From positions 1 through 64,000 of IMG/VR virus record IMGVR_UViG_3300042474_001151: a DNA stretch of 64,000 nt. One strand, given 5' to 3'. The DNA comes from a virus. Below the pieces are notes generated by a model, which saw only the letters and a list, made by a program, of their open reading frames with translations, ran no database searches and was not told the DNA's origin. Of the stretch, positions 11,252 through 58,970 are shown piece after piece. The translations under genes were made by a program, and so were the position numbers. Within the stretch, counting starts at the first letter, position 1. Each line of letters begins with the position of its first letter.

Positions 11252-11259
11252 TATTTATA
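11252..11259 (+). promoter_or_regulatory. Candidate late promoter box TATTTATA
   Basis: Exact TATTTATA ending 4 nt before the ATG at 11264. No Shine-Dalgarno sequence is present. Confidence 0.55.
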
Positions 11260-11263
11260 GAAT

Positions 11264-11872
11264 ATGGCAGTAGTAACAGTAACAGGAACGGGATTAAATT
11301 TGGCAACGGCAGCAAATAATTTTACAGTGGCAATTATTGATTATTTGGGTGCAAGTACTCAGTACGCAACAAGTGTTTCTAGATCATCATTAATAAGTGG
11401 ATATAATGTTACGGTTAATCCGGGAGATGTTACAATTAGAGTAACAAGTACTGGTGTTTGTAGTAGCTCGGCGGATATTAATATATCAATAGAGGCTTTA
11501 CAATCATATAGACCAAATCCAATCGAAGCCACCACATATGGAGCATCACCTGAATCTTTTATCGCGAGTGGTGGACGTGATGGTGGAGGTGGTAGTTATG
11601 AAGTAATAATTGGGGAGACGGATGTTTATTCTTTTATGAGTGAAACAGATTTTACAGTTACACACGTATCAACATCAGGTGGACTCAGTACAGGAGCTTT
11701 TTTAGCTGATAGTTTAGGAGCTCGTATTGTAGGGTCCACAACTTTACAAATGTTCGGGGAGACAAGAAGTACTTATACCCTAGACCCATCAATTAACACC
11801 TCAACGTATAGATTGACATATACTCCATCAGGATTATCAAGAGATGTTAATTTTTATTGGTTCGTAGAATAA
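11264..11872 (+). CDS. Putative virion structural protein, 202 residues
   Basis: Starts MAVVTVTGTGLN directly after a TATTTATA box. The protein is Ser/Thr/Gly-rich with alternating hydrophobic residues, consistent with a beta-structured virion protein, and ends in an aromatic strand (VNFYWFVE). No recognised family. It lies between the giant adhesin and another 202-residue protein and is expressed in the same direction. Confidence 0.65.
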   Translation: MAVVTVTGTGLNLATAANNFTVAIIDYLGASTQYATSVSRSSLISGYNVTVNPGDVTIRVTSTGVCSSSADINISIEALQSYRPNPIEATTYGASPESFIASGGRDGGGGSYEVIIGETDVYSFMSETDFTVTHVSTSGGLSTGAFLADSLGARIVGSTTLQMFGETRSTYTLDPSINTSTYRLTYTPSGLSRDVNFYWFVE

Positions 11873-11902
11873 TCCATTTATTAAAAGTAATTAAATGTTT
11901 AT

Positions 11903-11944
11903 ATTGTACCAAATACATAGTAAAGATATTTACTAGTGTACAAT
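11903..11944 (+). promoter_or_regulatory. Intergenic inverted repeat ATTGTAC/GTACAAT
   Basis: In the 79-nt gap before 11952, ATTGTAC (11903-11909) is repeated in inverted form (11938-11944) with a 28-nt spacer, and overlaps TATATTGT (11900-11907). A TATTTATA variant (TATTTACT, 11927-11934) lies inside. It may be a regulatory site, but a 7-bp repeat in AT-rich DNA can arise by chance. Confidence 0.25.
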
Positions 11945-11951
11945 TTAAATT

Positions 11952-12560
11952 ATGTCAAATTCCGGTAGTTTTGCAACAATGTCATTCGTTATCCCATCAT
12001 TCCTTTTGGAAGATGGTACGTATTCACCTATCGATTCGGTAACACAAAGTTTTTTAGATTTTAGAGATTCGGGTTATTATGAACATGATAATACTGTTTT
12101 GGGACAATCACCTACATATCCATTTACCGGAAACACAACATTCACTTATTTAGGAGTTGGGGGAAGTAGAATTGATGAATTAAAAAAATACGGATCAACA
12201 GGATTTACACAAACCCTAACATCAGGTTCGAATTCGGAAGGAGTAGGTTGGACAGGATATACATTATCACATGTTGGGTCAACTGTAACAGGTGTTTTAC
12301 AATATAGAGACTATGAGGACGGTTATACTATGATTACAGGTAATACCACTGGATTTACAAAAGAAGAGATATTTGACGGTATATTAACGAGGAATGAACA
12401 CTTCTTAGGATTTGTGGAACAACCAACTGTTTATTCTGATGTTTTTGTTGAAAGAGGTAAACAAGGAGTGATGGAAGTTAACTTAAGATTGGGTGAAGTT
12501 GATAACATGGGAGAACTAAGTGTGTATAGTGGTGGGTATTTTAAAGTGAAAAAACAATAA
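11952..12560 (+). CDS. Putative virion structural protein, 202 residues
   Basis: Starts MSNSGSFATMSF. The soluble, Gly/Thr/Tyr-rich sequence has no signal peptide or membrane segment. The C-terminal part (FVERGKQGVMEVNLRLGEV) resembles short beta-hairpin ends seen in tail and baseplate components, but this is not diagnostic. It is followed 25 nt later by another structural gene. Function inferred only from the virion gene cluster. Confidence 0.6.
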   Translation: MSNSGSFATMSFVIPSFLLEDGTYSPIDSVTQSFLDFRDSGYYEHDNTVLGQSPTYPFTGNTTFTYLGVGGSRIDELKKYGSTGFTQTLTSGSNSEGVGWTGYTLSHVGSTVTGVLQYRDYEDGYTMITGNTTGFTKEEIFDGILTRNEHFLGFVEQPTVYSDVFVERGKQGVMEVNLRLGEVDNMGELSVYSGGYFKVKKQ

Positions 12561-12566
12561 AAATTA

Positions 12567-12574
12567 TATTTATA
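12567..12574 (+). promoter_or_regulatory. Candidate late promoter box TATTTATA
   Basis: Exact TATTTATA overlapping a TATAAATA (12571-12578), so the site reads TATTTATAAATA. It ends 11 nt before the ATG at 12586. Confidence 0.5.
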
Positions 12575-12585
12575 AATAAAAAGAT

Positions 12586-13512
12586 ATGGCAGTAGGAAGT
12601 TATGGTATAGTAAGACCCGCAGATGTATCACCAGAAGATGTTGAGATTTTATATCATTATACTTCTGGTAGAACAACCACAGCACCAATTACCTTGACAA
12701 GATTAAATGCTGAGGACGTTTTAACACCGGTATATCATAATCAGAATACTGTTGACGATTCTAATGTACAAGGAAATGAAATCTTGGGAGGTTTATACAA
12801 TTTGAAGTTAACATCTGAAAAATTCTCAGAACTTGGTGTTTACACATTACATCTTAGACCAAAACAAATTAGAACATCAATTACAGATTGTGGAGTCTTA
12901 GCGTCATTACCATCTGTAAGGGGTTTAGTTATTGATTTAAATAACGTACCTGCTGCATATAGAAATAGATTTACACCACAAGGTTTAGTTGGATATAGAA
13001 TTGAGTATATTAATACAAATGGTACTTTTCAAAAAATACCAAACTTTTATAGAGTTGTTACATCTTCATTTTATTGTCAACCAATAGTGTCAAATTTGTC
13101 TAATTCAACGGATAAAGCAATACGATACCAATATACAGACCAAACATCAAATTTGGTTTTTTTAACAATAACACCATCGTCATCACCATCAAGTAGACCA
13201 AATGTGGTTCCATTTATTGGACAGCCAGGACAAAATATTATTTTAACAAATACATTTTTTAACCCAACTACACTTGAAATAGAAATGGTAGAACATGATG
13301 CAAGTACATTGGCTCATGCTCTTTACGGTAATCAAACGAAGGCGATTACTCCGGGTATCTACACCATCTATGATAATAATAACAATAACGCAATATACAA
13401 ACAATATAACTTGTTTGAAGTTAAAGACGAATTCAATGAAACAATGTATGAGGTTAGAGAAGAGAGAGAAATCATTGATGAAAGTTTAGACTTTGACAAC
13501 ATTACCGAATAA
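12586..13512 (+). CDS. Putative tail/baseplate structural protein
   Basis: 308 residues starting [18 protein letters not shown]. The start is supported by the upstream TATTTATA box and tight spacing. The C-terminal 40 residues are acidic and helix-prone ([16 protein letters not shown]). The stop codon overlaps the next ATG as TAATG, which suggests translational coupling to the 1181-residue tail protein. No enzymatic motif. A baseplate or tail-end role is inferred from that coupling. Confidence 0.65.
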
Positions 13513-17080: not shown

Positions 17081-17088
17081 TATTTATA
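17081..17088 (+). promoter_or_regulatory. Candidate late promoter box TATTTATA
   Basis: Exact TATTTATA, 4 nt before the ATG at 17093, preceded by an A-rich stretch. Confidence 0.55.
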
Positions 17089-17092
17089 AAAT

Positions 17093-18682
17093 ATGAGCTT
17101 CTTAAATACAGGGTTTACACCCACAGTTTCAGCAAGATTAACTAAGGCAGGTAGAAATGCAATTGCAAAAGGTGATTTTTTAATTAGTTACTTTTCTATA
17201 GGTGACTCAGAATACAATTATAACCCAGATATAAGTGGTCTTACAAGTCAACGAGTTTTTGCTCCATTTGATAAAAATACACACGTTAAGTACCCATTTT
17301 TATATTCTGCAACAGGTTCTACAATTTATGGTATTCCCGTTGAAAGTCCCGATGATGAAAACCAACCATGTAGAAATGTGATGGAGGCAAATAGTGGATG
17401 GACATTAAACACAGTTTGGGAAAATAAACCATTAGGTATTAATGATTCAATCGCATTAAAAGACTACCAAAGTAATGTTTATAGTGGTGTTAAAAGTTAT
17501 TTAGGATATACATCATCCTCAGGTCAAACTTTTATTAACTATTCAGGAGGAACAATAACAGGTACAACAATAAGAAACACAATGTTGGAAGAGGTTGAAA
17601 TATTACCTGAAGAACAAAATTCAATTGCAATTTTACATTATTCAGAAAGTGGCACAACTGCGGACCCATATAAGTTTTTTAAATATGATGATTACATTAG
17701 TAACCATAGTGGTACCACAACACCTAATGCTATTACCGATATAGATTATTTTGAAGTTTCAATGTCAAATTTAATGTATCATAGATTGGGTGACGCAACT
17801 ACCGGTACGACATTCCATATGAGTACGGGAAAAACAAAATCAGTAACAAGTGAATATAATTCAGACTTCCAACTTGATTATGTTGATTTATTAGACGTTA
17901 ATGAATATAGTGTCGGTAAAATTTTCTTTAATCAAAAAATTATAGTATTTGATGACCAAGAAATTGTTGCGGTTTTAGATACAGGTTCTACCAGAAATTA
18001 TACACTTACAGCACCAAAAGTTAGTTCATACATAACAAATGCAGACCCAATTGTTGATTTAACAACTGGCAAGACTCTTTGGGTAACATATGTTTTAAGC
18101 GGAGGTACAGTGTCAGGAGATTTACCTTGTAGTTATTTTATGAAAGTAACGGGTACAACTAATGATGAGAATGTTACTGTTAAATTTAATAGTGGTGAAT
18201 TTAAACATTTAAATAGTGGTTATACTGCAACAGAATTTCATATACTACATCAATTTACAGATAATGGAGAACAACCGGACCCTAATCAATGGTATAGTAA
18301 AAATTATACGAGTGAATTATCAAGTATAAATGATTTAAAAAATGGATTTACATTTACATTGAATGAAACTAAAATAAACGATGCTGAAAGTAGACCTCCT
18401 TATGTCTCTTCTTTAACTAATTTTGGAAAAGAAAGAACATATACGGAAGGAACCGTAAGTACTGTAATTGGGACGGATGTTCAAGTAATGAATTTCGTTA
18501 TTAATTTACCCGATGGTAAATTTACAGATTCACAAAACCCAACATATGTTTCAGGTACAAAATATATTACAGAAATTGCTCTATTAAATTCAAATAAAGA
18601 AACAATGGTTGTGGGTAAATTTAGTGCTCCGAGAGCAAGAACAACATCCGTTGATGTCTTTTCTGTAAAACTTGATTTCTAA
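17093..18682 (+). CDS. Putative virion structural protein, 529 residues
   Basis: Starts MSFLNTGFTPTVSARLTKAGR and continues with YFSIGDSEYNYN. This N-terminal pattern resembles large tail-associated proteins in T4-like phages. The rest is Thr/Ser/Gly-rich, mixed beta, with no membrane segment. It is the last gene of the left virion block; the next gene starts the nucleic-acid module after 39 nt. A tail or baseplate role is inferred. Confidence 0.65.
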   Translation: MSFLNTGFTPTVSARLTKAGRNAIAKGDFLISYFSIGDSEYNYNPDISGLTSQRVFAPFDKNTHVKYPFLYSATGSTIYGIPVESPDDENQPCRNVMEANSGWTLNTVWENKPLGINDSIALKDYQSNVYSGVKSYLGYTSSSGQTFINYSGGTITGTTIRNTMLEEVEILPEEQNSIAILHYSESGTTADPYKFFKYDDYISNHSGTTTPNAITDIDYFEVSMSNLMYHRLGDATTGTTFHMSTGKTKSVTSEYNSDFQLDYVDLLDVNEYSVGKIFFNQKIIVFDDQEIVAVLDTGSTRNYTLTAPKVSSYITNADPIVDLTTGKTLWVTYVLSGGTVSGDLPCSYFMKVTGTTNDENVTVKFNSGEFKHLNSGYTATEFHILHQFTDNGEQPDPNQWYSKNYTSELSSINDLKNGFTFTLNETKINDAESRPPYVSSLTNFGKERTYTEGTVSTVIGTDVQVMNFVINLPDGKFTDSQNPTYVSGTKYITEIALLNSNKETMVVGKFSAPRARTTSVDVFSVKLDF

Positions 18683-19367: not shown

Positions 19368-19375
19368 TATTTATA
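19368..19375 (+). promoter_or_regulatory. TATTTATA box before a structured RNA
   Basis: Exact TATTTATA not followed by a near ATG. A start about 6-7 nt downstream would begin a transcript at the base of the hairpins at 19385-19440. Confidence 0.45.
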
Positions 19376-26830: not shown

Positions 26831-26838
26831 TATATTTG
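26831..26838 (+). promoter_or_regulatory. Host-type promoter -7 box TATATTTG (clpP)
   Basis: Perfect TAnnTTTG match, 21 nt before the ATG at 26860, back to back with the reverse-strand copy at 26798-26805. The -33 position is a T run rather than TTTG. Confidence 0.6.
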
Positions 26839-27564: not shown

Positions 27565-27572
27565 TATTTATA
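27565..27572 (+). promoter_or_regulatory. Candidate late promoter box TATTTATA
   Basis: Exact match directly after the clpP terminator and 14 nt before the ATG at 27587, where a new transcript would be needed. Confidence 0.55.
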
Positions 27573-27586: not shown

Positions 27587-27922
27587 ATGAAGATTGATAA
27601 AACAAACATCCTATTAGTTTTGATTGCTTGTTTAGCCGCTTATACCATATTTCAAAATCAAGGTATAAAAACTGACGTTGCGGGATATAATGCTAAAATC
27701 GAATCCTTACAAAAAGAGATAGATTCGGTTTATATTGCAAATAAAGAAATAGACAATCAAATCGAAAAGGTTGATAATCACATTGTTAATGTTGATAAAG
27801 AAATCGACAATGTAACAAAAAACATAACTATTATTAAAAACAACACAGATGAAAAAGTTAATTCTATTACCACTATTGGTAATGTTGAGCTTGAGCAGTT
27901 ATTCGCAAACAGATACAACTAA
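27587..27922 (+). CDS. Membrane-anchored coiled-coil protein (possible spanin-like)
   Basis: 111 residues. One N-terminal membrane segment (NILLVLIACLAAYTIF, about 7-22) is followed by a long, strongly charged coiled coil with repeated D-N-x-I and V-D-K-E-I-D-N heptads, facing the periplasm by the positive-inside rule. This is the architecture of an inner-membrane spanin, but there is no sequence-level proof. The last 74 nt overlap the next gene in another frame, as in nested Rz/Rz1 pairs. It follows a terminator and a TATTTATA box, consistent with late expression. Confidence 0.6.
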   Translation: MKIDKTNILLVLIACLAAYTIFQNQGIKTDVAGYNAKIESLQKEIDSVYIANKEIDNQIEKVDNHIVNVDKEIDNVTKNITIIKNNTDEKVNSITTIGNVELEQLFANRYN

Positions 27923-29430: not shown

Positions 29431-30246
29431 ATGAAGAAATCTATTATCACTAATACTGAGGAAATCCAACAGTACATCAAAGACATTCGCAAAATTTCTG
29501 TAATTTCTCACGAAAGACAAGAAGAAATTTTTGATTTGTTAAAGGATAAAAAAATTAGCAAGGAAATAAAGTCAAAATTACACGAGGAATTAATTGTCGG
29601 TAATTTAAGATTTGTTATATCTGTTGCAAAAATGTATCAAAACCAAGGAATGGATATTATGGATTTAATATCTGAAGGTAATATTGGTTTAATGAAGGCA
29701 GCTGAAAGATTTGACCCAACAAGTGGATTAAAATTTATATCATATGCTGTGTGGTGGGTTAGACAATCCATTATGGCATCGTTAAATGAAAATGCTAGAA
29801 CAATTCGTTTACCATCAAACTTAATTCAGGAGGCACAAAAGGCAAAGAAACATGAAGTAAGTGATGAAGATAATTTTTTCATTGGAGGTGATGTTGAAGA
29901 AAAACCAATTTCAACTAATCTACCATATTGTGTTGGACTTTATAAAACAATCAATGAAGAGGGAGACCAATTAATTGACATGATTCCAAATAAAGAGGCT
30001 GAAAGTCCTGATGCGATTCTTAATTCTCCTGAAGAAATAAAGAAAAAAGTGGCATTAATGTTAAATGTTTTAGATGAGAGAGAAAAGATAATTATTGAAA
30101 AATATTATGGTTTGACAGGTATTGAATGTAATTTAGATGATTTAGGTGAAGAGTTTGGTTGTACTAAAGAACGTATAAGACAATTACGTGATAAGGCCAT
30201 TAAGAAGTTAAGAAATGAGAGTTTTGGTCTCCTAAACTATTTATAA
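29431..30246 (+). CDS. Sigma-70 family RNA polymerase sigma factor
   Basis: 271 residues. Region 2 is well preserved (about 56-125): LRFVISVAKMYQNQGMD, then DLISEGNIGLMKAAERFD and FISYAVWWVRQSIMASL, the core-binding and -10-recognition helices of primary-type sigma factors. Region 3 is reduced to a short acidic linker. Region 4 (about 211-262) has the helix-turn-helix CTKERIRQLRDKAIKKLR. It resembles the host primary sigma rather than the T4 gp55 type. It probably redirects host RNA polymerase to phage promoters; the TATTTATA boxes are candidate targets. Expressed from its own host-type promoter. Confidence 0.85.
   Translation: MKKSIITNTEEIQQYIKDIRKISVISHERQEEIFDLLKDKKISKEIKSKLHEELIVGNLRFVISVAKMYQNQGMDIMDLISEGNIGLMKAAERFDPTSGLKFISYAVWWVRQSIMASLNENARTIRLPSNLIQEAQKAKKHEVSDEDNFFIGGDVEEKPISTNLPYCVGLYKTINEEGDQLIDMIPNKEAESPDAILNSPEEIKKKVALMLNVLDEREKIIIEKYYGLTGIECNLDDLGEEFGCTKERIRQLRDKAIKKLRNESFGLLNYL
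30238..30245 (+). promoter_or_regulatory. TATTTATA box inside the sigma-factor 3' end
   Basis: Exact TATTTATA overlapping the last codons of the sigma-factor gene and lying 6 nt before the ATG at 30252. Confidence 0.4.
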
Positions 30247-31917: not shown

Positions 31918-32544
31918 ATGTTGACGATTTATAATATAGAAACGATTGATGAATCGAAATTAAACATCCATAGAAAAAAATCTAAGAAGACACAGATATT
32001 ACTATACGACACCCAAAGGAGGGTAGATGATTTTATCAATAAAATAAAACATAGAAAGAACGGTAAATTCGAAGACATCCCACACTTCATTATAACCAAG
32101 TTAGGTACCGTTTACCAATTATTTGACACCGACTATAGTTCCAATACATTTAATGACAATAGGAACGATAAGAAGATGATAAAAATTGCAATTGAGAACT
32201 TGGGTTGGTTAAATAAAAACACCATCACTGGTATCCTTAATAATTGGATTGGAGACCCATACAGGTCCGAACCACACATTAGAAATTGGAGAAATTACTT
32301 TTTTTGGGACAAATACAACGAAAATCAATTATCAGTACTTTCAGAACTTTGTGAAATGTTATGTGAAAGACATGATATTTTCAAACAAACCGTCCCATCT
32401 AACGGATATCTTGAAAATGTATCAAATTTCAAGGGTATTGTATGTAAATCCAACTTTTCGAGTATTTATACAGATATAAACCCTTCATTTAATTTTAGAA
32501 TATTTTTCAACAATGCAAAAGAAACTAATGACAGAATACGATAG
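31918..32544 (+). CDS. Amidase_2/PGRP-fold-like protein with altered zinc site
   Basis: 208 residues. The core IPHFIITKLGTVYQLFD (His56) matches the YHfvIdrdGtvyqlv strand of type-2 N-acetylmuramoyl-L-alanine amidases, and the C-terminal GIVCKSNFSSIYTDINPSF aligns with the HsdiapgRKtDPGp motif. The expected zinc ligands are altered: the first His is Tyr30, the second is Cys176 (10 residues before Asp186, the spacing known from AmpD), and only Asp186 is kept. It may be an endolysin with a modified metal site or a non-catalytic peptidoglycan binder. No signal peptide. Confidence 0.5.
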   Translation: MLTIYNIETIDESKLNIHRKKSKKTQILLYDTQRRVDDFINKIKHRKNGKFEDIPHFIITKLGTVYQLFDTDYSSNTFNDNRNDKKMIKIAIENLGWLNKNTITGILNNWIGDPYRSEPHIRNWRNYFFWDKYNENQLSVLSELCEMLCERHDIFKQTVPSNGYLENVSNFKGIVCKSNFSSIYTDINPSFNFRIFFNNAKETNDRIR

Positions 32545-33306: not shown

Positions 33307-34400
33307 TGGAAAAAGTAATTAAACCTGATATTGAGGGTGAAATGGACGAGTTCCAAAGAATATCGCAAGATTTAAGACGAGATGAAAAAATTGACATCTC
33401 CGTTAAGGAACTTGTACGCTCTTTTGATGGGTTGAAGGAACAAACACTTACAGATGATGTTTGGCCTAAATTAGAGAACACAGAATCAAACGAAATAGAA
33501 AAGGGTGACATTGAGGCGGTTAACGATATTGCAAAAATGTACAATAAGACAAACCCAAAGAAATTAATAAAGGCAATCAAATCAGGTGAGTACGAAAGAC
33601 CTCTAATTTTAAAAATGGGTGACAGATACATTCTTATTGCTGGAAACACAAGATTATGTACCGCGGCAGCAATGGGAGTTAACCCTAAGGTTTTCATAGG
33701 TGAAATTGGAGAGGATGTAAACGAAATAGAAGAGGTAAAAGGGGAAATCAATGAAAAGTGTTGGAAGGGATATACACAAAAGGGAATGAAAACAATGTTT
33801 GGTAAAAGATACCCAAATTGTGTAAAAAAGACAAAAACAAACGAAGCAGCAAATCCAGCTCAACAAGCCGCAATTGCTATTAATATGAAGAAAAAAGGAA
33901 TCGAACCAAAAAAAGAAACTAAAGAATCTATGGGTGCTGGAGGTTCAGGATCATTTGAAGGACCAGTTTTTAGTGATGTAGTATTAAAAAAAGACATTCA
34001 TAAATTCCATAACTCAAACCTTAAAGAACAACAAGAGGAAGTGGGTGAAGCAACCGATGCATCATCTTCAGGTGGTTACGATGTACCTTTGTTTGGTAAA
34101 ACACCCAAAGGACGTAGAAATCCACTAAAGATAGATGGTCCTGATAGTATCTATAAAGGTAGAGCGGTAACAGATAAGAAATTTCCAAAATGGGGAGGTC
34201 CCGGTGGTGTCTTTGTTAAGATTAAGGAGAAGTGTAAAAAGTTCCCTTATTGCAATCAAGGAGACACTGGAGCCTTAGAATTCATTAAAGAAGATAAAGA
34301 AATAGTACAAGCAATAACCGAAACATCAAAAAAATACGGTATTCCATATAAAGAAATGGAAAAAATTGTATTAAATGAGATAAATAAGATATTTATTTAG
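33306..34400 (+). CDS. Multidomain phage protein with ParB-like motif and CWKGY motif
   Basis: 364 residues. About 89-125 contains a ParB/Srx-like core (ERPLILKMGDRYILIAGNTR, then LCTAAAMG), the fold used for nucleotide binding in ParB. About 149-173 contains the CWKGYTQKGMKTMFGK motif with a following NCVKK, which recurs in structural or scaffold-type proteins of T4-like marine phages. Gly-rich segments (GSGSFEGPVF; SSSGGYDVPLFG) suggest a modular assembly protein. The C-terminus is helical. Nuclease, kinase or scaffold functions cannot be assigned from sequence alone. Confidence 0.6.
   Translation: MEKVIKPDIEGEMDEFQRISQDLRRDEKIDISVKELVRSFDGLKEQTLTDDVWPKLENTESNEIEKGDIEAVNDIAKMYNKTNPKKLIKAIKSGEYERPLILKMGDRYILIAGNTRLCTAAAMGVNPKVFIGEIGEDVNEIEEVKGEINEKCWKGYTQKGMKTMFGKRYPNCVKKTKTNEAANPAQQAAIAINMKKKGIEPKKETKESMGAGGSGSFEGPVFSDVVLKKDIHKFHNSNLKEQQEEVGEATDASSSGGYDVPLFGKTPKGRRNPLKIDGPDSIYKGRAVTDKKFPKWGGPGGVFVKIKEKCKKFPYCNQGDTGALEFIKEDKEIVQAITETSKKYGIPYKEMEKIVLNEINKIFI
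34390..34397 (+). promoter_or_regulatory. TATTTATA variant (TATTTATT)
   Basis: One mismatch, 4 nt before the ATG at 34402 and inside the end of the previous gene; may be coincidence. Confidence 0.3.
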
Positions 34401-38162: not shown

Positions 38163-38170
38163 TATTTATC
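38163..38170 (+). promoter_or_regulatory. TATTTATA variant (TATTTATC)
   Basis: One mismatch, 3 nt before the ATG at 38174, in the divergent gap between the small reverse gene and the papain-fold-like gene. Confidence 0.4.
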
Positions 38171-39497: not shown

Positions 39498-40022
39498 ATG
39501 GAAACAAATTGGTACTTGGTAAAAGTTCTACCAGGAAAAGAAAGAACATTGGCTGAAGAGTTTAATAAATATATTTCATTGGGTAGAATGAAACCGGTTA
39601 CAAGGTTTGTTTGTCCAACTGAAAAAAATATGGTTGTTGTAAAAAATAAAAAAGTTATAAGAGAAAAGGTTCTTTATAGTGGATATCTTTATTTTGAAAC
39701 GGGTAAGAAATTAAATGAGGATGAATTAAAAACTCTATCGTTATTACCAAATATCATGGGTATGGGTGGAAGTAGAATCCCAATTGAATTACGAGATAGT
39801 GACATTAAAAGAATTTTAAAAGATGATACATTAGAACAACACGTGGATTCTAAAAAATTAAAATACATAATTGGTGAAGCGGTAACAGTTATTGAGGGTC
39901 CGTTTAATACATTTGAAGGAACAATTGCAGAAATAAATGGAGATAAGGTCTCAATAGAAATAAAAATATTTGGTAGAAATACTGCGGTTGAATTAACACT
40001 AAACCAAATAGCAAAAGTATAA
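39498..40022 (+). CDS. NusG-like transcription factor
   Basis: 174 residues. The N-terminal NGN domain starts WYLVKVLPGKERTLAEEF and includes LYSGYLYFE; the C-terminal KOW domain is seen in GEAVTVIEGPFNTFEGTIAE. This is the two-domain plan of NusG, which binds RNA polymerase at the clamp and affects elongation, pausing and termination. In a phage with its own sigma factor, it could act as an antiterminator or modify late transcription; that is inference. It overlaps the next start as TAATG. Confidence 0.85.
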   Translation: METNWYLVKVLPGKERTLAEEFNKYISLGRMKPVTRFVCPTEKNMVVVKNKKVIREKVLYSGYLYFETGKKLNEDELKTLSLLPNIMGMGGSRIPIELRDSDIKRILKDDTLEQHVDSKKLKYIIGEAVTVIEGPFNTFEGTIAEINGDKVSIEIKIFGRNTAVELTLNQIAKV

Positions 40023-42076: not shown

Positions 42077-42084
42077 TATTTATG
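42077..42084 (+). promoter_or_regulatory. TATTTATA variant (TATTTATG) starting the fibre block
   Basis: One mismatch, 19 nt before the ATG at 42104 and just after the terminator at 42027, where a new promoter is needed. Confidence 0.45.
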
Positions 42085-43141: not shown

Positions 43142-43149
43142 TATTTATA
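43142..43149 (+). promoter_or_regulatory. Candidate late promoter box TATTTATA
   Basis: Exact match, 22 nt before the ATG at 43172. Confidence 0.5.
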
Positions 43150-45733: not shown

Positions 45734-45741
45734 TATTTATA
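45734..45741 (+). promoter_or_regulatory. Candidate late promoter box TATTTATA
   Basis: Exact match, 4 nt before the ATG at 45746, directly downstream of a terminator. Confidence 0.6.
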
Positions 45742-46530: not shown

Positions 46531-46538
46531 TATTTATA
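46531..46538 (+). promoter_or_regulatory. Candidate late promoter box TATTTATA
   Basis: Exact match within GTATTTATAGTTAA, a 14-mer repeated exactly at 58962-58975. It lies 68 nt before the ATG at 46607. Confidence 0.55.
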
Positions 46539-46606: not shown

Positions 46607-49600
46607 ATGGCACAAATAGTAAAACTGCGTAGGAGTAGTGTACCCGGTCAAAAACCAACAAACTCAAACCTACAATTAGGTGAATTAGCATTAAACACTA
46701 CCGACGGTAAGGTTTACATGGCGGTTTCAGGTTCTCTCGGACCATCAGTTGAGGAGTTAATCTCAACGAACACGGTTAATACAGGGTCTTTACAATTAGT
46801 AGGTTCGATTACAGCATCCGCATTTAGTGGTAGTGCAGTTGGTTTAACAAACGTACCATTTAGAATATCTGGTTCAGATGTTGAGGGTAATCAATCAGAT
46901 AAGACATTTACAAAATTACATTTTGATTCTGACACAGGATTAAATGTTAGTGAATCTGCACCCGGTACTGCATTTATATCAATTGGTTCTCACTTTAAAG
47001 ATATTTTTGTTTCGGGTTCACCAATATTAAGTGCAACAGGTTCAGACGCATTTGAAATTATACCAACTGGTGGTGTTGAAATTACAACATCAATTACGGA
47101 CACAAATGGTAATGGTTATGTTAAAGAATTAAACATTAGCACAACAACATTATCATCATCTTTAAATAATAGAATGGATACCATTACAGGTTCCATTACA
47201 ACATTATCAGGTTCGGTTAATTCTCTTAATACATTTACATCAAGTGTTGTGTTAACATCACAAACATCTTCAATGAATGTGTTAAGTGCCTCTTATGCAT
47301 TAACTGCGGCATTTGCATTAAATGCCGGTGCGGGTGGAGGAGGTAGTTCAGTTACAGATGGTGCATATGCGGTATTAAATCAAACAACGCCAGCAACAAC
47401 ATGGACATTTAAACATAGTTTAGGTCAAAGATATCCAATATTTCAAGTTTTTGATTCTAATGGTAGTGTTATATTACCATCACAAATCACAACAATAGAT
47501 ATTGACAATGCAACAATCACATTCCCAAGTAATCAAACAGGTAAAGTAATTGCATCGTTGGGTACAGGACCTGGCGGATTATCTCAATATTTTTCATCAA
47601 ACGCCACTTGGTCACTAGCACATAATTTAGGTTCAGATTATCCAATCGTAACTATTTGGGATACAAATAGAAGTATTATATTTCCACAAAAAATAGAATC
47701 GATAGATAATAATAATATTAAAATATATTTTTCAACACCTGTTGCCGGATATGTTAATGTTGCAAAAGGTGGACATATAATTAGTGGTTCGGTAGGTGCT
47801 GGCAGTATCGATTTTATAGGTTCCAATCTTGTAAGTGGTAGTGGACAAATATTAATTACAGGAACAACAGGATATTCAACATTTAGCGGTTCAATAAGTT
47901 CATCAATAGGTTCTTTAAGTTCATCTGTTGCAACAACAACATTAGTACTAAGTTCTAGTATTTTAAGTTTATCAAGTTCGGTAGCAACAACAACTAGTGG
48001 TTTAAGTTCCAGTATTGGTTCTTTATCTTCGTCAGTTGCCACAACAACAAATACATTAAGTTCTAGTGTTGCAACAACTACAAATAATTTAAGTAGTTCA
48101 ATCGGAAGTTTATCTTCTTCAATTGCCACAACAGACAGTAATCAAAATACAAGGTTAGATAATATTGAGACTAGTACAGGAAGTTTAAATAGTTTCACTA
48201 GTTCTATTAACACAACAATAAAATCTAAATTAGATAGTGATGGTGTTATATCTGGAAGTATCCAAGTTTTATTGACAGGAACAACGGGTTACTCAACATT
48301 TAGTTCTAGTATATCTACAAGTATAGGTTTATTATCTTCCTCAGTTGCAACAACAACAAGTGGATTAACAAGTACAATAACAAGTTTAAGTTCTTCATTA
48401 TCAAGTTCAATTGATTCTTTAAGTTCTAGTGTTGCAACAACTACTAATAATTTAAGTAGTTCAATATCTAGTTCAATCGGAAGTTTAAGTTCAAGTGTTG
48501 CGTCAATTAATAACGCACAAAATGGTAGATTAGATTCACTTGAAACTGCGAGTGGAAGTATACGGACTAATTTTAATACATTTACATCATCTTATACAAC
48601 AGTATCAGGTTCAATAGATTCTAGACTAGATGTATTAGAAGCATATAGTGGATCACAACTTGTACCATCATCTTCAATGTCATTTAGAACATTACAGACT
48701 GATGTGTATTGTAAAAACATGTCAGGTACCCAAATAAATAAGGGTACTGTTGTTAGAATTGTGGGATCGGTCGGTGACAACCCATTAATTGGTGTTGCAT
48801 CATTTTTAACTGAAGGACAATCCGCAAATACGTTAGGTATTGCATCTGAAAATATTCCAAACGATGGTTTTGGTTTAGTAATAACTGAAGGCGTTTTAAC
48901 TGGTGTTAACACAGACGGAATGACCGCAGGTCAGTTATTATTTTTAGGTGCAAACGGGACATTCACAACTAGTTACCCAGTTCCTCCAAATCACGGAGTT
49001 AGATTAGGTGAAGTACTAAGAGTTCAACAAAATCAGGGTTCAATTTACGTTCGTGTAGACAATGGTGCAGAATTAGGTGAAGCTCACGATGTATATGACA
49101 CCACAACCAATTCATCATATGGTGATTTATTGGTAAAAAGTGGTAGTGTATGGGTTAATAGTAGAAGTTTAAATGGTGATTACGTTGTTACTGGTAGTTT
49201 AACTGTTACACAGAACTTAACAGTTCTTGGTTCATCATCACTTGTATATGTTACCTCATCAAATTTAGCTGTAAGTGCTTCATTCATAAGTGTAAACGTA
49301 TTTGAACCTGCAGAAAGATTTGGTGGTTTAAAGGTGTATGATAGTGGTAGTGCGAACGCCACCGCATCTTTAGCGTGGGATAGTTTACATAACCATTGGG
49401 TTTACCAAAATGTAAGTGGTAGTAATTACTCAGGAGGTATGTTACTTTCGGGACCAAGAAATACAGGTTCATTAGGTGATGAACCTAATTTAATTAATGG
49501 TAGAATTGTTAAGTCAGTAGGTGGAGATCATATCGATGTATCAATTATTTCAGAAACAGGAACAACAATAACAGTTGCCGGAGATTTAGTTGCGAATTCG

Positions 49601-51664
49601 ATAACAGGAGCATTCGATTATTTTGGTTTAGTTAATCGACCAACATTGATTTCTGGAAGTTCACAAATCAATATAACAGGAACAACAGGTTATTCAACAT
49701 TTAGTAGTTCAGTAAGTTCAAGTGTGGGTTTACTATCTTCTTCAGTTGCAACTACAACATCAGGATTAAGTTCTAGTATTAATTCATTAAGTTCTAGTAT
49801 TGATTCACTAAGTTCTAGTGTTGCAACAACAACACTTAATTTAAAAAATCGGGTTGATTCTATTGAAGGTATAACCGGTTCGATATCGTCATTGAATACC
49901 TATACAGGTAGTAACAATACAGTAATTGGCACGTTACAAACGGCAACAGGAAGTCTTAATACCTTCACTTCAAGTGCGAGTGGAAGGTTGGATTCTTTAG
50001 AAAGTGCGAGCAGCAGTATCAGAACTACATTGAACTCATATACAAGTTCAAATGATTCAACTAACACCACTCAAAACAGTAGATTAACAAGTATTGAAGG
50101 TATAACTGGATCTATCTCATCATTAAATTCATTTACCGCTTCAATTAATACAACAATTAAAAGTAAGTTAGATAGTGAAAATGTTGTATCTGGTTCTTCA
50201 CAAATTATTTATTCTGGATTAACAGGAATACCTTCAGGTATTGTATCTGGTTCGATTCAAGTAGAGTTAACCGGAACAACAGGTTATTCAACATTTAGTT
50301 CTAGTATATCTACAAGTATTGGGGCGTTAAGTTCATCAATTTCAACAACAACATTAGGCACAAAAAATCGGGTCGATTCAATTGAATCTAAAACAGGAAG
50401 TTATGCAACAACCGGTTCAAATGTATTCATTGGTAATCAAAATATAAATGGTAATTTATCTGTAACAGGTAGTGGTAATATAACGGGAGATTTAACTGTT
50501 CAAGGTAATTTAATCGCACAACAATATATTGTCTCATCTTCAGTAACATATTTAACCACATCATTCTCATCAGGTTCGACAAAATTCGGAGATAGTTTAG
50601 ATGATACACATCAATTTACGGGTTCAGTTCTTATATCGGGTAGTATTGTATCAACAACAACACCTTTAGTTTCGGGAAGTAGTCAAATATCATATAGTGG
50701 ATTAACAGGAATACCTTCAGGTATTGTTAGTGGAAGTTCACAAGTATTAAATGGTAGTGGTGTGTGGTCAGGTTCGGCTCAACTTCCAAGTGGAGTTGTT
50801 TCGGGTTCATCACAAATTATTTATTCTGGATTAACAGGAATACCGTCAGATATAGTTTCAGGTAGCTCACAATTAACAGGTTCATATGACACACGTTATG
50901 TTCTTAGTGGTTCAATCACACAAACAACTTGGGATAATATTGCATCAAAACCACCTGGCATTATTTCGGGGTCTGTACAAATTGTTAATTTAGGATTTGC
51001 AACAACAAGTTCAAATGATTTATATGGAGATAGGTATTTGTTTTCAACCGCACTATCAACAGGTTCATGGGTTATTAACCATAACTTAGGTTTTCAATTC
51101 CCAAATGTTGATATATATGATTCTTCTAATCAAATATTAATACCACAAGCAATTACCGCCACATCAGCAAACAGTATGCAAATTGATTTTGCAACTCCAA
51201 CTATAGGTAAGGCAATATTAACAATTGGTGGAGCAAGAAGTACAGGTTTATTTGTACAAAGTGGTTCATTCTACAATGCAACAACTAACATTGGAATCAC
51301 AGGTTCATTGGTTGTAACAGGTGATGTGGACGCTAATAATTTCAACACAACATCTGATAAGAAATTAAAAACAAATCTCGTTAGAATTGAAAATGCATTA
51401 GATAAGATTGAAAAATTAAATGGTTATACATTTGATTGGTTAGAAGAATATAGTGAAGATAGAACAAGACAAATCGGGATGGTTGCCGATGAGGTATATG
51501 AAGTACAACCAGAATTGATATCACATAGAAATATTGTTTTATCAAACAAAGAAGAAAAAATAAAATTATTAGACTACTCTAAAGTGACAGCAATATTAAT
51601 TGAAGCAATTAAAGAGTTGAACGATAAGGTTACAAAATTAGAAAATAAAAAGAAGAAAAAATGA
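46607..51664 (+). CDS. Long tail fibre with C-terminal peptidase S74 chaperone
   Basis: 1685 residues. N-terminus AQIVKLRRSSVPGQKP, then LQLGELALNT, is an attachment domain. Three copies of a beta module (HNLGxxYPxxxIxDxN, then IxFxxPxxGxAxL) lie near 265, 335 and 1480. Ser/Thr-rich rods of 18-residue units are at about 420-540. A domain near 690-820 begins FRTLQTDVYCKNMSG. The shared display module is at about 870. The last 100 residues form an S74 intramolecular chaperone (Ser1583 in TTSDKKLKTN, then QIGMVADEV), which trimerises the fibre and is then cleaved off. Likely a main host-recognition fibre. Confidence 0.85.
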   Translation: MAQIVKLRRSSVPGQKPTNSNLQLGELALNTTDGKVYMAVSGSLGPSVEELISTNTVNTGSLQLVGSITASAFSGSAVGLTNVPFRISGSDVEGNQSDKTFTKLHFDSDTGLNVSESAPGTAFISIGSHFKDIFVSGSPILSATGSDAFEIIPTGGVEITTSITDTNGNGYVKELNISTTTLSSSLNNRMDTITGSITTLSGSVNSLNTFTSSVVLTSQTSSMNVLSASYALTAAFALNAGAGGGGSSVTDGAYAVLNQTTPATTWTFKHSLGQRYPIFQVFDSNGSVILPSQITTIDIDNATITFPSNQTGKVIASLGTGPGGLSQYFSSNATWSLAHNLGSDYPIVTIWDTNRSIIFPQKIESIDNNNIKIYFSTPVAGYVNVAKGGHIISGSVGAGSIDFIGSNLVSGSGQILITGTTGYSTFSGSISSSIGSLSSSVATTTLVLSSSILSLSSSVATTTSGLSSSIGSLSSSVATTTNTLSSSVATTTNNLSSSIGSLSSSIATTDSNQNTRLDNIETSTGSLNSFTSSINTTIKSKLDSDGVISGSIQVLLTGTTGYSTFSSSISTSIGLLSSSVATTTSGLTSTITSLSSSLSSSIDSLSSSVATTTNNLSSSISSSIGSLSSSVASINNAQNGRLDSLETASGSIRTNFNTFTSSYTTVSGSIDSRLDVLEAYSGSQLVPSSSMSFRTLQTDVYCKNMSGTQINKGTVVRIVGSVGDNPLIGVASFLTEGQSANTLGIASENIPNDGFGLVITEGVLTGVNTDGMTAGQLLFLGANGTFTTSYPVPPNHGVRLGEVLRVQQNQGSIYVRVDNGAELGEAHDVYDTTTNSSYGDLLVKSGSVWVNSRSLNGDYVVTGSLTVTQNLTVLGSSSLVYVTSSNLAVSASFISVNVFEPAERFGGLKVYDSGSANATASLAWDSLHNHWVYQNVSGSNYSGGMLLSGPRNTGSLGDEPNLINGRIVKSVGGDHIDVSIISETGTTITVAGDLVANSITGAFDYFGLVNRPTLISGSSQINITGTTGYSTFSSSVSSSVGLLSSSVATTTSGLSSSINSLSSSIDSLSSSVATTTLNLKNRVDSIEGITGSISSLNTYTGSNNTVIGTLQTATGSLNTFTSSASGRLDSLESASSSIRTTLNSYTSSNDSTNTTQNSRLTSIEGITGSISSLNSFTASINTTIKSKLDSENVVSGSSQIIYSGLTGIPSGIVSGSIQVELTGTTGYSTFSSSISTSIGALSSSISTTTLGTKNRVDSIESKTGSYATTGSNVFIGNQNINGNLSVTGSGNITGDLTVQGNLIAQQYIVSSSVTYLTTSFSSGSTKFGDSLDDTHQFTGSVLISGSIVSTTTPLVSGSSQISYSGLTGIPSGIVSGSSQVLNGSGVWSGSAQLPSGVVSGSSQIIYSGLTGIPSDIVSGSSQLTGSYDTRYVLSGSITQTTWDNIASKPPGIISGSVQIVNLGFATTSSNDLYGDRYLFSTALSTGSWVINHNLGFQFPNVDIYDSSNQILIPQAITATSANSMQIDFATPTIGKAILTIGGARSTGLFVQSGSFYNATTNIGITGSLVVTGDVDANNFNTTSDKKLKTNLVRIENALDKIEKLNGYTFDWLEEYSEDRTRQIGMVADEVYEVQPELISHRNIVLSNKEEKIKLLDYSKVTAILIEAIKELNDKVTKLENKKKKK
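47866..48600 (+). repeat. 18-residue Ser/Thr-rich repeats, array A
   Basis: Tandem units of the form GSLSSSVATTTSGLSSSI encoded with varying codons, interrupted by a SxFTSSINTTIKSKLDS linker. The array resembles a trimeric beta or coiled-coil rod. Confidence 0.8.
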
Positions 51665-54518: not shown

Positions 54519-54526
54519 TATTTATA
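54519..54526 (+). promoter_or_regulatory. Candidate late promoter box TATTTATA
   Basis: Exact match, 4 nt before the ATG at 54531. Confidence 0.55.
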
Positions 54527-54530
54527 ACTA

Positions 54531-57110
54531 ATGGCAAACGGAGCATTTAAATTTAAAGACAATTCGGGTAATGTAGTATCATTTATTTCAGGAAGTGGTT
54601 CAAATATATCATTTTCAGGAGGTACGCTTGACCTATCAGGAATGACAGGTTTAACCTTGGGTGGTTTAATAATGAGCGGTTCAATTACAAACGCTCTAAC
54701 AGCATCCTCGGCTCCAAGTTATTTGTTAACATCTTCTTTTAACACATATAGCTCAAGTTTAGCAACTACGGGTTCAAATACTTTTATTGGTAATCAAACA
54801 ATATCAGGTAGTATTGTATCAACAGTTACAACATTAGTATCAGGTTCATCACAAATTACATATTCAGGATTAACAGGAATACCATCAGGTATTGTATCTG
54901 GTTCATCACAATTGACATCATCATATGATGATAGATATGTGTTGAGCGGTTCAATTACCCAAACAACTTGGGATAACATCGCATCAAAACCATCAGGTAT
55001 TGCATCAGGTTCATCACAAATTGATATAACAGGAACAACAGGATATTCAACATTCAGTTCAAGTATATCCACAAGTATTGGAAGTTTGTCTGGTTCTGTG
55101 GCAATCACAACATCAGGATTAAGTTCTTCCATAGGAAGTTTATCCTCAAGTTTTGCAACAACTACAATCGGATTAAAAAATCGGATTGATTCTATTGAAA
55201 CAACAACAGGTTCCTTAAACACATTCACATCAAGTGCGTCAGGAAGATTAACTTCTTTGGAAACTGCAAGTGGTTCAATACGTACAGATTTTAATACTTA
55301 CACAGGTTCTAACGATTCGACAAATACAACTCAAAATAGTAGATTGACAAGTATCGAAGGAATTACGGGGTCAATAAGTTCACTTAACACATACACAGGT
55401 AGTAACAATACCATAATAGGTACATTACAAACTGCAACAAGTAGTTTGAATTCATATACAAGTTCTAATACAACTAATATAAATGCAATTCATACTTCAA
55501 CGGGTTCGTTTAAATCGTTCACATCATCGTTCGATACTGCATTTGGAATGAGTGGTGCTGACGTTACCGTTAAAGGTAATTTAACTGTTTCAGGGACACA
55601 AACAATTGTCAATTCAACAACGGTAGCAATTGGAGATAACATCATTCAATTGAATGGTACAGGTGCAACAAACGCAGGTTTGGTTGTGAGAGATGCAACC
55701 GCACCAAATACGGTGTCAGGTTCATTTCTTTGGGATAGTACCAATGATAAATGGATAGCGGGATCATTGGGTTCAGAAGACGACATCGTATTAAGAACGG
55801 CAACTCAAACATTAACAAATAAAACAATTAATGCATCCCAATTAGTGGATGCGTCTGTAACAAATACTAAATTAGCAAATTCATCTATAACAATAGCTGG
55901 AACATCAACATCGTTAGGTGGTACAATATCTGCGGCGACAATATTATCAGGTACAGGAACGGTATCAGGTTCATCTCAAATTGATTTAACTGCAACAACC
56001 AATTATGCTTCAGGTATATTAACAAGATTAAATGCTGTTGGTGTTTTTAGTGGTTCTGCTCAGGTTACCGGAATTGGTAATGCACAATTAACAAATTCAT
56101 CGTTTTTTGTTGGTACAACATCAATATCATTAGGTCGGGCAAGTGCATCACAAACGTTAACTGGTGTTGCAATTGATGGAAATGCCGGTACAGTTACAAA
56201 TGGTGTTTATACAACTGGAGACCAAACAATTGGTGGAACAAAAACATTTTCATCGACAATTGTTGGGTCTATTAATGGAAGTGCCGCACAACTTGATGGA
56301 CAAGGTCAGGCATACTATTTTAGTAAAGCCAATATGGATGCCGCAAGAAGTATTGTTTCTGGTACTAACTTAGATACTGATTTAGAAAACGGAGGGGCTT
56401 ATAGTTCTTATGGTGCTGGTGGTACAAGTTGGAACGCACCATTTGGTTATGGTGGTGTTATAGCATACGCCTTTACAAGTGGGATTAGAGCTCAGTTTGG
56501 TTTCGATATTAGACACACGGCTTCTGATTATGGTGACCTTTGGTATAGAACTAAAAATAATGTGGGTTATAGTACGTGGAGAAAAATGTGGCACGACGGT
56601 AACTTAACAAACTTAAATCAACTTACTAACGGTCCCGGATATATTACATCAGATTCCACCAAACTTCCTTTAGCGGGTGGTACAATGACAGGCACAATCC
56701 GGTTCTCGAATGTGGTGGGTAACAAAATAGATTTTTATTTTCTTGACACTGATAGATACGGTATACAAGTTCAAAGTAGTGAACTTAGAATTCATTCTGG
56801 AGCTCAAGGGGCTTCAACGGGAGGTGTTACACTTGGTAAAAGTACGGACACCACATTTACTGAATATTTAAGAGTAAGAAACGATGGTCACGTAGTACCT
56901 GGAGGTAACGGTACACAAAATTTAGGTTCATCATCATTAAGATGGGCCACAGTCTTCACTTCCGATTTATCCATGAGTAATGGTATTGGTGATTACACAA
57001 TAGTGGAGGGTGAAGAAAAATTATACTTATATAATAATAAAAATAATAAGGTTTATTCTTTTGTTTTACAAGAAGAAGACCCGGCAACAGCGACACCAAA
57101 AATGTCTTAA
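54531..57110 (+). CDS. Tail fibre with pyocin-knob-type C-terminal region
   Basis: 859 residues. The rod (about 60-300) is built of Ser/Thr repeats shared with the 1685- and 1574-residue fibres (ITGTTGYSTFSSSISTSIG). The display module recurs at about 345-425 (TVAIGDNIIQLNGTGATNAG; SGSFLWDSTNDKWIAGS). The C-terminal part contains LWYRTKNNVGYSTWRKMWHDG, a pyocin-knob-like segment, then NLNQLTNGPGYIT and the conserved fibre ending NLGSSSLRWATVFTSDLSMS. No S74 chaperone. Confidence 0.8.
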   Translation: MANGAFKFKDNSGNVVSFISGSGSNISFSGGTLDLSGMTGLTLGGLIMSGSITNALTASSAPSYLLTSSFNTYSSSLATTGSNTFIGNQTISGSIVSTVTTLVSGSSQITYSGLTGIPSGIVSGSSQLTSSYDDRYVLSGSITQTTWDNIASKPSGIASGSSQIDITGTTGYSTFSSSISTSIGSLSGSVAITTSGLSSSIGSLSSSFATTTIGLKNRIDSIETTTGSLNTFTSSASGRLTSLETASGSIRTDFNTYTGSNDSTNTTQNSRLTSIEGITGSISSLNTYTGSNNTIIGTLQTATSSLNSYTSSNTTNINAIHTSTGSFKSFTSSFDTAFGMSGADVTVKGNLTVSGTQTIVNSTTVAIGDNIIQLNGTGATNAGLVVRDATAPNTVSGSFLWDSTNDKWIAGSLGSEDDIVLRTATQTLTNKTINASQLVDASVTNTKLANSSITIAGTSTSLGGTISAATILSGTGTVSGSSQIDLTATTNYASGILTRLNAVGVFSGSAQVTGIGNAQLTNSSFFVGTTSISLGRASASQTLTGVAIDGNAGTVTNGVYTTGDQTIGGTKTFSSTIVGSINGSAAQLDGQGQAYYFSKANMDAARSIVSGTNLDTDLENGGAYSSYGAGGTSWNAPFGYGGVIAYAFTSGIRAQFGFDIRHTASDYGDLWYRTKNNVGYSTWRKMWHDGNLTNLNQLTNGPGYITSDSTKLPLAGGTMTGTIRFSNVVGNKIDFYFLDTDRYGIQVQSSELRIHSGAQGASTGGVTLGKSTDTTFTEYLRVRNDGHVVPGGNGTQNLGSSSLRWATVFTSDLSMSNGIGDYTIVEGEEKLYLYNNKNNKVYSFVLQEEDPATATPKMS

Positions 57111-57113
57111 TAT

Positions 57114-57398
57114 ATGGAAGAGTTTGATTTCCCAGAAATGGATCCGAATAGAATTATAACAGAAGACAATCCAATGTATTATGTTATTATTAATACATCG
57201 GATTTAGTAAATATAAATTTTGATGATGTGTTTAACAACGTTGATGAGGATTTAAGATACTCTTTTGATGGCACAAAAACGTTTATAAAATTTAGAGGTG
57301 AAATACCATCATGTATACAAAATTTAGAAACAAAATCTGAAACATTAACATCAGAAGAAATAAGCAACATTCTTCATACAGAAGAATGGAATTTTTAA
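57114..57398 (+). CDS. Small acidic protein between fibre and lectin genes
   Basis: 94 residues, starting 3 nt after the fibre stop. Acidic, alpha/beta pattern (MYYVIINTSDLVNINFDDV), no membrane segment. The C-terminus (SEEISNILHTEEWNF) is short and acidic. Position suggests a fibre-associated chaperone or capping protein; no sequence support. Confidence 0.55.
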   Translation: MEEFDFPEMDPNRIITEDNPMYYVIINTSDLVNINFDDVFNNVDEDLRYSFDGTKTFIKFRGEIPSCIQNLETKSETLTSEEISNILHTEEWNF

Positions 57399-57410
57399 TT
57401 ATATTTTAAT

Positions 57411-58166
57411 ATGCCAATAGACGTTAATAGTAATGTGATAAATTCATTAGGTACTAAAATTTTTAATTCCACACAAATTGTTTCGTCTGGATTAGTTTGG
57501 TATTATGATGCGGGAATTGCGGATTCATATGCTGGTAGTGGAACATCTGTTGTGGACCTTACTGGTAATGGAAACAACTCAACATTAAGCGATTTTTCAT
57601 ATGTAAACACATATGGAGGTTCTTTTCAAAATACTACGAGTCGGAATGGGTCTCCAGGTATTCAAGTTCCCTTAACTAATTTTTCAAAATTGGTGGGTAC
57701 TTGTGAATTTTGGGTTAGACCAACAACATATAGTAGTGGAAACGGTATGTTTGTAAATCGTGCCGATGATACAGCTAATGCGAGTGATTGGTGGTGGTTA
57801 GGTATTTGGGATAGTGGTCAGCGTTTATATCTCAGATTAGGTAACAGTGCTGGATGTTGTGGAAATGACAATTCACCTGTTTGGACAGGTGTTCATCCAG
57901 TAAATACATGGGGGCACTATGCCGCTACATGGAATTCAGGTGTTGAATCGAAAATATATTTTAACGGGGTGTTAAATTCAACAGTATCAATTACATCAAT
58001 ACCAAATTCTAACCCATCTTCAACAGGTAGGTGGGGTTTAGGTCATAATACTACCAATTCACAATGGTTAGGACAAATGGGGACATTTAAACATTATAAT
58101 AGAGTATTATCGGCTGCAGAAGTTTTACAAAATTACCAAGCGGATAGACCGAGATTCGGAAAATAA
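57411..58166 (+). CDS. LamG/concanavalin-like lectin-domain protein
   Basis: 251 residues. A short conserved N-terminus (MPIDVNSNVINSLG) shared with the next gene precedes one LamG-like beta-sandwich: VSSGLVWYYDAG, VVDLTGNGNNSTLSD, a WGHYAATWNSGVESKIYFNG core strand and a YNRVLSAAEVLQNY ending. Binding of a glycan is expected for the fold; the ligand is unknown. Presumably displayed on a fibre tip. Confidence 0.8.
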   Translation: MPIDVNSNVINSLGTKIFNSTQIVSSGLVWYYDAGIADSYAGSGTSVVDLTGNGNNSTLSDFSYVNTYGGSFQNTTSRNGSPGIQVPLTNFSKLVGTCEFWVRPTTYSSGNGMFVNRADDTANASDWWWLGIWDSGQRLYLRLGNSAGCCGNDNSPVWTGVHPVNTWGHYAATWNSGVESKIYFNGVLNSTVSITSIPNSNPSSTGRWGLGHNTTNSQWLGQMGTFKHYNRVLSAAEVLQNYQADRPRFGK

Positions 58167-58175
58167 GATAAGACT

Positions 58176-58925
58176 ATGCCATTTGATATAAACGGAAATA
58201 TTTTTAATAGCTTCGATGCTAAATTACACAACTCAACGAGTGTTATTCGTGATGGGTTGGTATGTTACTTAGATGCTGGAAATGCCGAATCATATGGTGG
58301 TAGTGGGTCAACTTGGTACGATTTAAGTGGTAATGGTAATAATGGTAATTTAAATAGTGTCGATTGGTTACCATCAAATGGGGGGATTTTTCAAACAAAC
58401 GGATCTAGTTCAAGTTTTATAGACATACCATCACCCAATTTATCTTCAAGTAATTACACAGTTATTGGTGCTGCAAGATATACAGGATTAGGTGGTAATA
58501 ATAGAGAAAGAATGATTAACGCCAAAAATAATAACTGGTTGATGGGTCATTGGGGTAATAGTGTTTTGAATTATTATGCTGTAGGGTGGGTTAGTAGTGT
58601 TGGTACAGGTGGAACTGATAATAATTGGAGAATATACTCAGCAACAGGAAGAGGAACATATAGTCTATATGAAAATGGGATTTTAAATGTATCAAATACA
58701 AATGGTACCGAAGGTCCAAATGGTCTTACAATTGGTAAAATTGGGTATTCAACGAGTGAAGTTAGTAATGGTCAAGTTGGATTTGTATTAGTTTATAATA
58801 GAATATTAACTAACCAAGAAATTTTACAAATGTATCAAGTTTTTAGACCACGTTATGAAAGATATTTTGATTGTGGTTACGGATGTCAATTGTATAATTA
58901 CGATCCGGGCTGTACCGCCTGTTAA
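58176..58925 (+). CDS. LamG/concanavalin-like lectin-domain protein, paralogue of the previous gene
   Basis: 249 residues, same plan as the preceding gene: MPFDINGNIFNSFD, DGLVCYLDAGNAESYGGSGS, TWYDLSGNGNNGNLNS and a terminal VYNRILTNQEILQMYQ. It adds a Cys-rich C-terminal tail (CGYGCQLYNYDPGCTAC, five Cys) not present in the other copies. The two genes are tandem duplicates that have diverged, so the phage may carry alternative or combined receptor-binding lectins. Confidence 0.8.
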   Translation: MPFDINGNIFNSFDAKLHNSTSVIRDGLVCYLDAGNAESYGGSGSTWYDLSGNGNNGNLNSVDWLPSNGGIFQTNGSSSSFIDIPSPNLSSSNYTVIGAARYTGLGGNNRERMINAKNNNWLMGHWGNSVLNYYAVGWVSSVGTGGTDNNWRIYSATGRGTYSLYENGILNVSNTNGTEGPNGLTIGKIGYSTSEVSNGQVGFVLVYNRILTNQEILQMYQVFRPRYERYFDCGYGCQLYNYDPGCTAC

Positions 58926-58962
58926 AAACTTTCTTTTTTTTCCACATAACCCATTCCCTAAG

Positions 58963-58970
58963 TATTTATA
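58963..58970 (+). promoter_or_regulatory. Candidate late promoter box TATTTATA with palindrome
   Basis: Exact match in GTATTTATAGTTAA, also found at 46530-46543. A TTATAGTT/AACTATAA inverted repeat overlaps it. ATG at 58987 is 16 nt downstream. Confidence 0.55.

Follow-up and report, generated by a model that had tools for sequence, protein, structure and literature searches.

The box at gene starts in the window

The stretch of DNA analysed here (the window) comprises the leftmost 64 kb of a linear virus record of 176,430 bases, IMGVR_UViG_3300042474_001151 (hereafter G000), with a G+C content of 32% and tailed-phage genes. We investigated the 8-bp element TATTTATA, which a sequence-only reading had proposed as a candidate late promoter lying before most virion genes. 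The window holds 13 plus-strand and 2 minus-strand copies (8641 and 12571), that is, 15 copies as compared with 15.0 by shuffling. An excess in total count was rejected and, since observed and shuffled counts are equal, the signal is positional and not numerical. Indeed, an exact copy was found at most 30 nucleotides (nt) upstream of 8 of the 49 called plus-strand starts, whereas 2000 dinucleotide shuffles gave a mean of 0.84 and a maximum of 5. Over the entire record, TATTTATA was upstream of 16 genes vs ~3 expected. An Rfam scan of the window gave no match.

For comparison, relatives were fetched with the window's sigma gene. This yielded eight large related records, whole or nearly so, which make nine phages with G000. 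Genes of all phages were called by one simple in-house method, and some starts are wrong.

All boxes described below are on the plus strand. Four exact copies end 4 nt before an ATG, as had been pointed out: those at 11252..11259 (gene 11264-11872, predicted to be leaderless), 17081..17088 (gene 17093-18682, boxed in 5/8 relatives), 45734..45741 (virion gene 45746-46492, the box being directly 3' of a T-rich terminator-like stretch), and 54519..54526 (gene 54531-57110). Other copies stand at various distances. The box at 12567..12574, overlapped by the inverted copy at 12571, lies 11 nt before gene 12586-13512, and all eight phages having this gene family (8/8) show it 11-12 nt from the start. 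The box at 19368..19375, found at the same place in G015, is upstream of a primase gene, with a gap of 104 nt to an ATG at 19480 or of 50 nt to a GTG at 19426. The copy at 27565..27572 comes right after a G+C-rich/T-rich stretch and 14 nt before the open reading frame (ORF) 27587-27922, and that at 58963..58970 is 16 nt before gene 58987-63711. The box at 43142..43149 lies 22 nt before virion gene 43172-45658, whose family is boxed in 7/7 phages with gaps of 22-41 nt, and the one at 46531..46538 lies 68 nt before the tail-fibre gene 46607-51664. Incidentally, the product of gene 43172-45658 carries a weak bactofilin-like stretch (residues 588-652), slightly under the Pfam cut-off.

The three one-mismatch forms listed earlier were all present: TATTTATT at 34390..34397, 4 nt before gene 34402-35679 and with a T at position 8, the commonest variant; TATTTATC at 38163..38170, 3 nt before ORF 38174-38587; and TATTTATG at 42077..42084, 19 nt before virion gene 42104-43129, a gene boxed in 3/7 relatives. 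The exact positions given by the sequence-only reading were likewise found, save that its copy at 41930 starts in fact at 41920. This copy and the one at 32463..32470 do lie inside coding sequence, as it had said, but they are not alone in this, as the box at 30238..30245, 6 nt before gene 30252-31787, falls within the final codons of the sigma gene, which ends at 30246. The copy at 32463, although within an amidase ORF, is probably a real box because the box ahead of the following gene (start at 32528, 57 nt away) is kept in 5/8 relatives. The statement that the box precedes most virion genes holds roughly for the heads of transcription units but not for every gene.

Enrichment and conservation in related phages

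A motif-free search of the 60 nt upstream of starts returned TATTTATA as the most enriched 8-mer in eight of the nine phages, G000 among them, and as the second in the ninth. Pooled over the nine, it occurred upstream 198 times vs 25 expected; the nine phages being kin, such counts are not independent, a concern that a redundancy filter, the varying gaps, and the distant phages immuto and RM378 (see below) reduce but do not remove. The reverse complement was not enriched (37 vs 30). The reversed pattern ATATTTAT was unfit as a control, since it overlaps the box. Substituting one base at position 1, 2, or 4-7 brought the count to or near background, whereas changes were tolerated weakly at position 3 (C) and clearly at position 8 (T, then C and G). 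The density of the box was 4.6-15 per 10 kb between genes, as compared with 0.1-1.0 within genes. As a positive control, 50 kb of T4 passed through the same pipeline gave back the T4 late box TATAAATA (9 vs 0.6), with gaps mostly of 14-28 nt. In Bacteroidota phages outside the group, TATTTATA was not enriched (crAss001, 0 vs 0.5; FCL-2, 0 vs 0.8; phi14:2, 1 vs 0.9), and the 47-50 kb searched in these three phages contained no match to the gp55-like protein described below.

Conservation was followed at the level of orthologous genes, and families tended to be boxed, or to be without a box, as a whole. Pairs of orthologues with both members boxed numbered 282, as against 86 +/- 8 in permutations. 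The genes for the tail sheath, the tail tube, and the gp25-type baseplate wedge were boxed wherever present (6/6 each), as were those for the T4-type portal and the large terminase (5/5 each). None of the papers in the library searched described TATTTATA as a phage promoter.

A candidate late promoter and its candidate reader

Several features of the box sites point to transcription. Terminator-like hairpins were found upstream of 65/230 boxed genes vs 43/415 unboxed genes (p 2e-8). Among 150 nonredundant sites at least 10 nt from the start, A occupied the fourth and the fifth nt after the box in >70%, and still in 65% at sites at least 22 nt from the start. No motif was seen near -35 in 150 nonredundant sites, in line with the earlier remark that the box has no clear -35 partner. 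Within genes, the box was avoided on both strands (51 copies vs 118 expected, and 37 vs 115 for its reverse complement; ranks 7 and 4 of 256 A/T words). Spacing from box to start ranged from 3 to more than 60 nt and varied from one orthologous family to another as well as among members of a single family. Part of this variation reflects mis-called starts: on aligning N-termini, the portal of G004 and the terminases of G004 and G007 start a few nt from the box, as in other relatives. Finally, the box stood 2-7 nt ahead of 1.0% of tightly packed genes vs 4.6-9.9% of other genes. Strand specificity, upstream terminators, two-strand avoidance, variable spacing, and the downstream A thus point to TATTTATA being a promoter -10 element without a visible -35 element. 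Together with the conservation and the packing pattern, they lend support to the late-promoter reading made at the outset. In a group of large T4-like myoviruses infecting Bacteroidota, TATTTATA is probably the -10 element of the promoters from which virion genes are transcribed late, with a gp55-like sigma as the proposed reader. The element itself is real, conserved, and strand-specific, and would represent a new consensus for a T4-late-type promoter.

Which protein reads it? A second sigma-like protein, of 232 amino acids, is encoded in G015, G006, G004, and G007; in each case, its gene lies between those for the portal and the sheath. Among its homologues, 29/33 match the PHROG "late sigma transcription factor," and a profile of the family run against PDB had T4 gp55 (7d7c/7d7d) as its sole match (E 5e-4). 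Foldseek matches of its model were mostly sigma factors, albeit weak. The cultured Flavobacterium phage immuto also encodes a gp55-like protein and carries the box before its terminase, portal, sheath, tube, and tape-measure genes, so that a gp55-family sigma was found in immuto and in the four records above. Rhodothermus phage RM378 encodes a gp55-like protein as well and has TATTTAAA upstream of genes 21 times vs 1.0, seven of these sites being exactly 5 nt from the ATG. Taken for itself, TATTTAAA looks like a late promoter of RM378, a cultured phage of a thermophile. In Microcystis phage Mel-JY01, a gp55-like gene is present and the top upstream 8-mer is ATATTTAT. As a side observation, the portal of Mel-JY01 is 45% identical to those of the Bacteroidota phages, which makes its stated cyanobacterial host worth a second look.

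A number of points weigh against a gp55-like reader. The kinship with T4 gp55 is distant (hhalign over 110 columns, E 3e-4, probability 42%), and the AlphaFold model of the gp55-like protein is of middling confidence. G009 has a strong box, yet no gp55-like protein was found there although portal and terminase are present. Conversely, a gp55-like protein is encoded by the huge phage LR756508, of which the 100 kb examined show no such box. The window's own record, G000, has no gp55-like gene either. However, G000 is truncated, its left end falling within a gene, and in G015, with which it is collinear, the gp55-like gene is ~57 kb past the matching point; since G000 stops before the corresponding region, the missing gene is uninformative, and the gp55-like gene of the window's phage would lie beyond the cut. 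All in all, we regard the gp55-like factor as the likeliest reader of TATTTATA.

The sequence-only reading had favored another user, the sigma factor encoded in the window itself. This RpoD-like phage sigma (29431..30246, plus strand, 271 amino acids) has sigma-70 regions 2 and 4 and presumably resembles the Bacteroidota primary sigma in region 2.4. It is conserved in many relatives (37-100% identity), retains both regions, and occurs in all nine phages, including G009. Yet no such sigma was found in 160 kb of immuto, where the box precedes genes of the same kinds; gp55-like factors go together with similar boxes in RM378 and T4; and an intact region 4 would be expected to leave a -35 motif, of which there was no sign. 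After the immuto observation, this sigma was set aside as the box reader; with the gp55-like factor in the relatives, the earlier attribution is probably wrong, and we judge it unlikely that late promoters are read by the RpoD-like sigma. A NusG-like protein is also encoded in the window (39498..40022, plus strand) and in G006, G007, and G015; its gene was not found in G004 or immuto.

Next, we considered whether TATTTATA might be no more than a weak version of TAnnTTTG, the known -7 box of the Bacteroidota primary sigma. Both are of equal length, both start with TA, and both would occupy the same -12 to -5 slot (PMC6847099, PMC9723704). However, TAnnTTTG was enriched separately in the same phages, and ahead of other genes. 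A host-type box, TATATTTG, lies at 26831..26838 on the plus strand, 21 nt before the ClpP gene (26860-27534), and in 7/8 relatives this class precedes ClpP without TATTTATA. Few genes are common to both boxes, and TATTTATA lacks TTTG and is very strictly kept, which makes a degenerate host box very improbable. The two gene sets look like two temporal promoter classes. Incidentally, the ClpP protease gene is present in 8/9 phages and adjoins genes for a DUF6576 protein and the RpoD-like sigma. We also noticed in immuto a further enriched upstream motif, TTCGTATATTTAGGTATCAATAA-like (e.g., TTTAGGTA, 16 vs 0.8), which may be an early promoter; TTCGTATAT is enriched in the window's phage too.

Last, the alternative put forward by the sequence-only reading itself, in which the box would act within the mRNA leader to direct translation, replacing the Shine-Dalgarno sequence that Bacteroidota lack, could appeal to the peak of gaps at 3-4 nt before ATG and to the A-rich start contexts of these phages, which have no Shine-Dalgarno, but has next to no chance, as the gaps vary widely even within orthologous families, the box is scarce in tightly packed genes, absent from other Bacteroidota phages, and associated with terminators upstream, and its avoidance on the antisense strand of genes is left unexplained by a translation signal.

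Predicted leaders and comparison with known systems

Returning to TATTTATA as a late promoter, we looked at what box-to-start gaps would imply for the transcripts. Gaps peaked sharply at 3-4 nt and again, more broadly, at 12-17 nt, with a trough at 8-9 nt. The -7 box of Flavobacterium spans -12 to -5, and transcription starts 4-5 nt further on (PMC6847099, PMC9723704). With TATTTATA placed there, genes with a gap of 4 nt would have their ATG exactly at +1. A gap of 3-4 nt sets the box at -12 to -5 of the ATG, in agreement with the -10-like box ~10-12 nt before the start codon that marks leaderless genes (PMC3160421). Gaps of 3-4 nt would thus give leaderless mRNAs, and the trough would mean that leaders of ~4-5 nt are avoided. 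This supports the suggestion that mRNAs would be leaderless or nearly so. Such mRNAs are few in Flavobacterium (~5.5%; PMC9723704). Our proposal is that host RNA polymerase carrying the phage's T4 gp55-like late sigma would open DNA at the box, without a -35 element, and would start RNA on an A 4-5 nt downstream. Genes whose ATG is 3-5 nt from the box would have mRNAs beginning at the start codon; other genes would have a leader mostly of ~8-20 nt. We infer from sequence where RNA starts, that such mRNAs lack a leader, that the genes are expressed late, and that the gp55-like factor recognizes the box.

T4 offers the closest parallel. Its late promoter TATAAATA is recognized by gp55, which acts together with gp33 and the gp45 sliding clamp (PMC2988020, PMC7892883). 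As in T4, an 8-bp A/T box is found at -10 before virion genes, with no -35 element and with A/T-rich DNA just downstream, and relatives of the window's phage encode a gp55-family protein. The two differ in that, on the coding strand, AA in TATAAATA is TT at positions 4-5 of TATTTATA. The box is thus not the reverse complement of the T4 box, as had been claimed. The T4 consensus was not enriched in these phages, and since TATTTATA stands in its place, we call it a variant of the T4 late promoter. A further difference is that T4 gaps, mostly of 14-28 nt, go with Shine-Dalgarno leaders, whereas many boxes here are 3-5 nt from the ATG.

Contacts between gp55 and its promoter are known in T4: A-12 stacks on Y97, A-9 contacts N13 and H95, and A-8 bonds T99 (PMC7892883). 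By hhalign, Y97, R57, and F86 of T4 are conserved in the gp55-like proteins as Y92, R53, and F81, whereas H95, N13, and T99 are replaced by Y/F90, G12, and G94. Read in the T4 register, TATTTATA would retain A-12 and A-8 but have T in place of A-9, so that the changed base would meet a changed pocket. The change at T99 fits this scheme less neatly.

T4 late transcription is coupled to replication through the sliding clamp, an arrangement thought to be general among T4-related phages (PMC2988020). A search for the gp45 clamp (PF09116) in T4, six of the phages, immuto, and Mel-JY01 gave a match in T4 only, although the others may use a divergent clamp or that of the host. The gp55-like proteins bear no SLDFLYE-like clamp-binding tail of the kind found on T4 gp55. 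In immuto, the DNA polymerases are of family A. We put forward tentatively, as somewhat short of an even chance, that a widespread clade of T4-like Bacteroidota phages runs a gp55-driven late program without T4-type clamp activation, using TATTTATA with matching changes in the gp55 pocket and making many leaderless virion mRNAs in hosts that seldom do so. A large and mostly uncultured branch appears to retain a gp55 factor and a -10-only promoter, with the box changed and no clamp that could be recognized. Late-gene timing without a clamp thereby becomes directly testable in a cultured phage, immuto, and the box allows late genes and operon heads to be read from metagenomic sequence.

RM378 combines a near-identical late box, TATTTAAA, with a gp55-like protein and a cluster of sites 5 nt before the ATG; it differs in having AA, not TA, at the 3' end of the box, a hot-spring host, and very distant proteins. 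The Bacteroidota primary-sigma promoter (TTTG/TAnnTTTG) shares the TA start and the -12 to -5 slot, whereas TATTTATA has neither TTTG nor a -33 element and precedes other genes, both types occurring within one phage. Finally, in the TA-led leaderless genes of bacteria (PMC3160421), a -10-like box ~12 nt before the start codon likewise implies a leaderless mRNA, but the box there is the host's, whereas here it would belong to a phage late class with another consensus.

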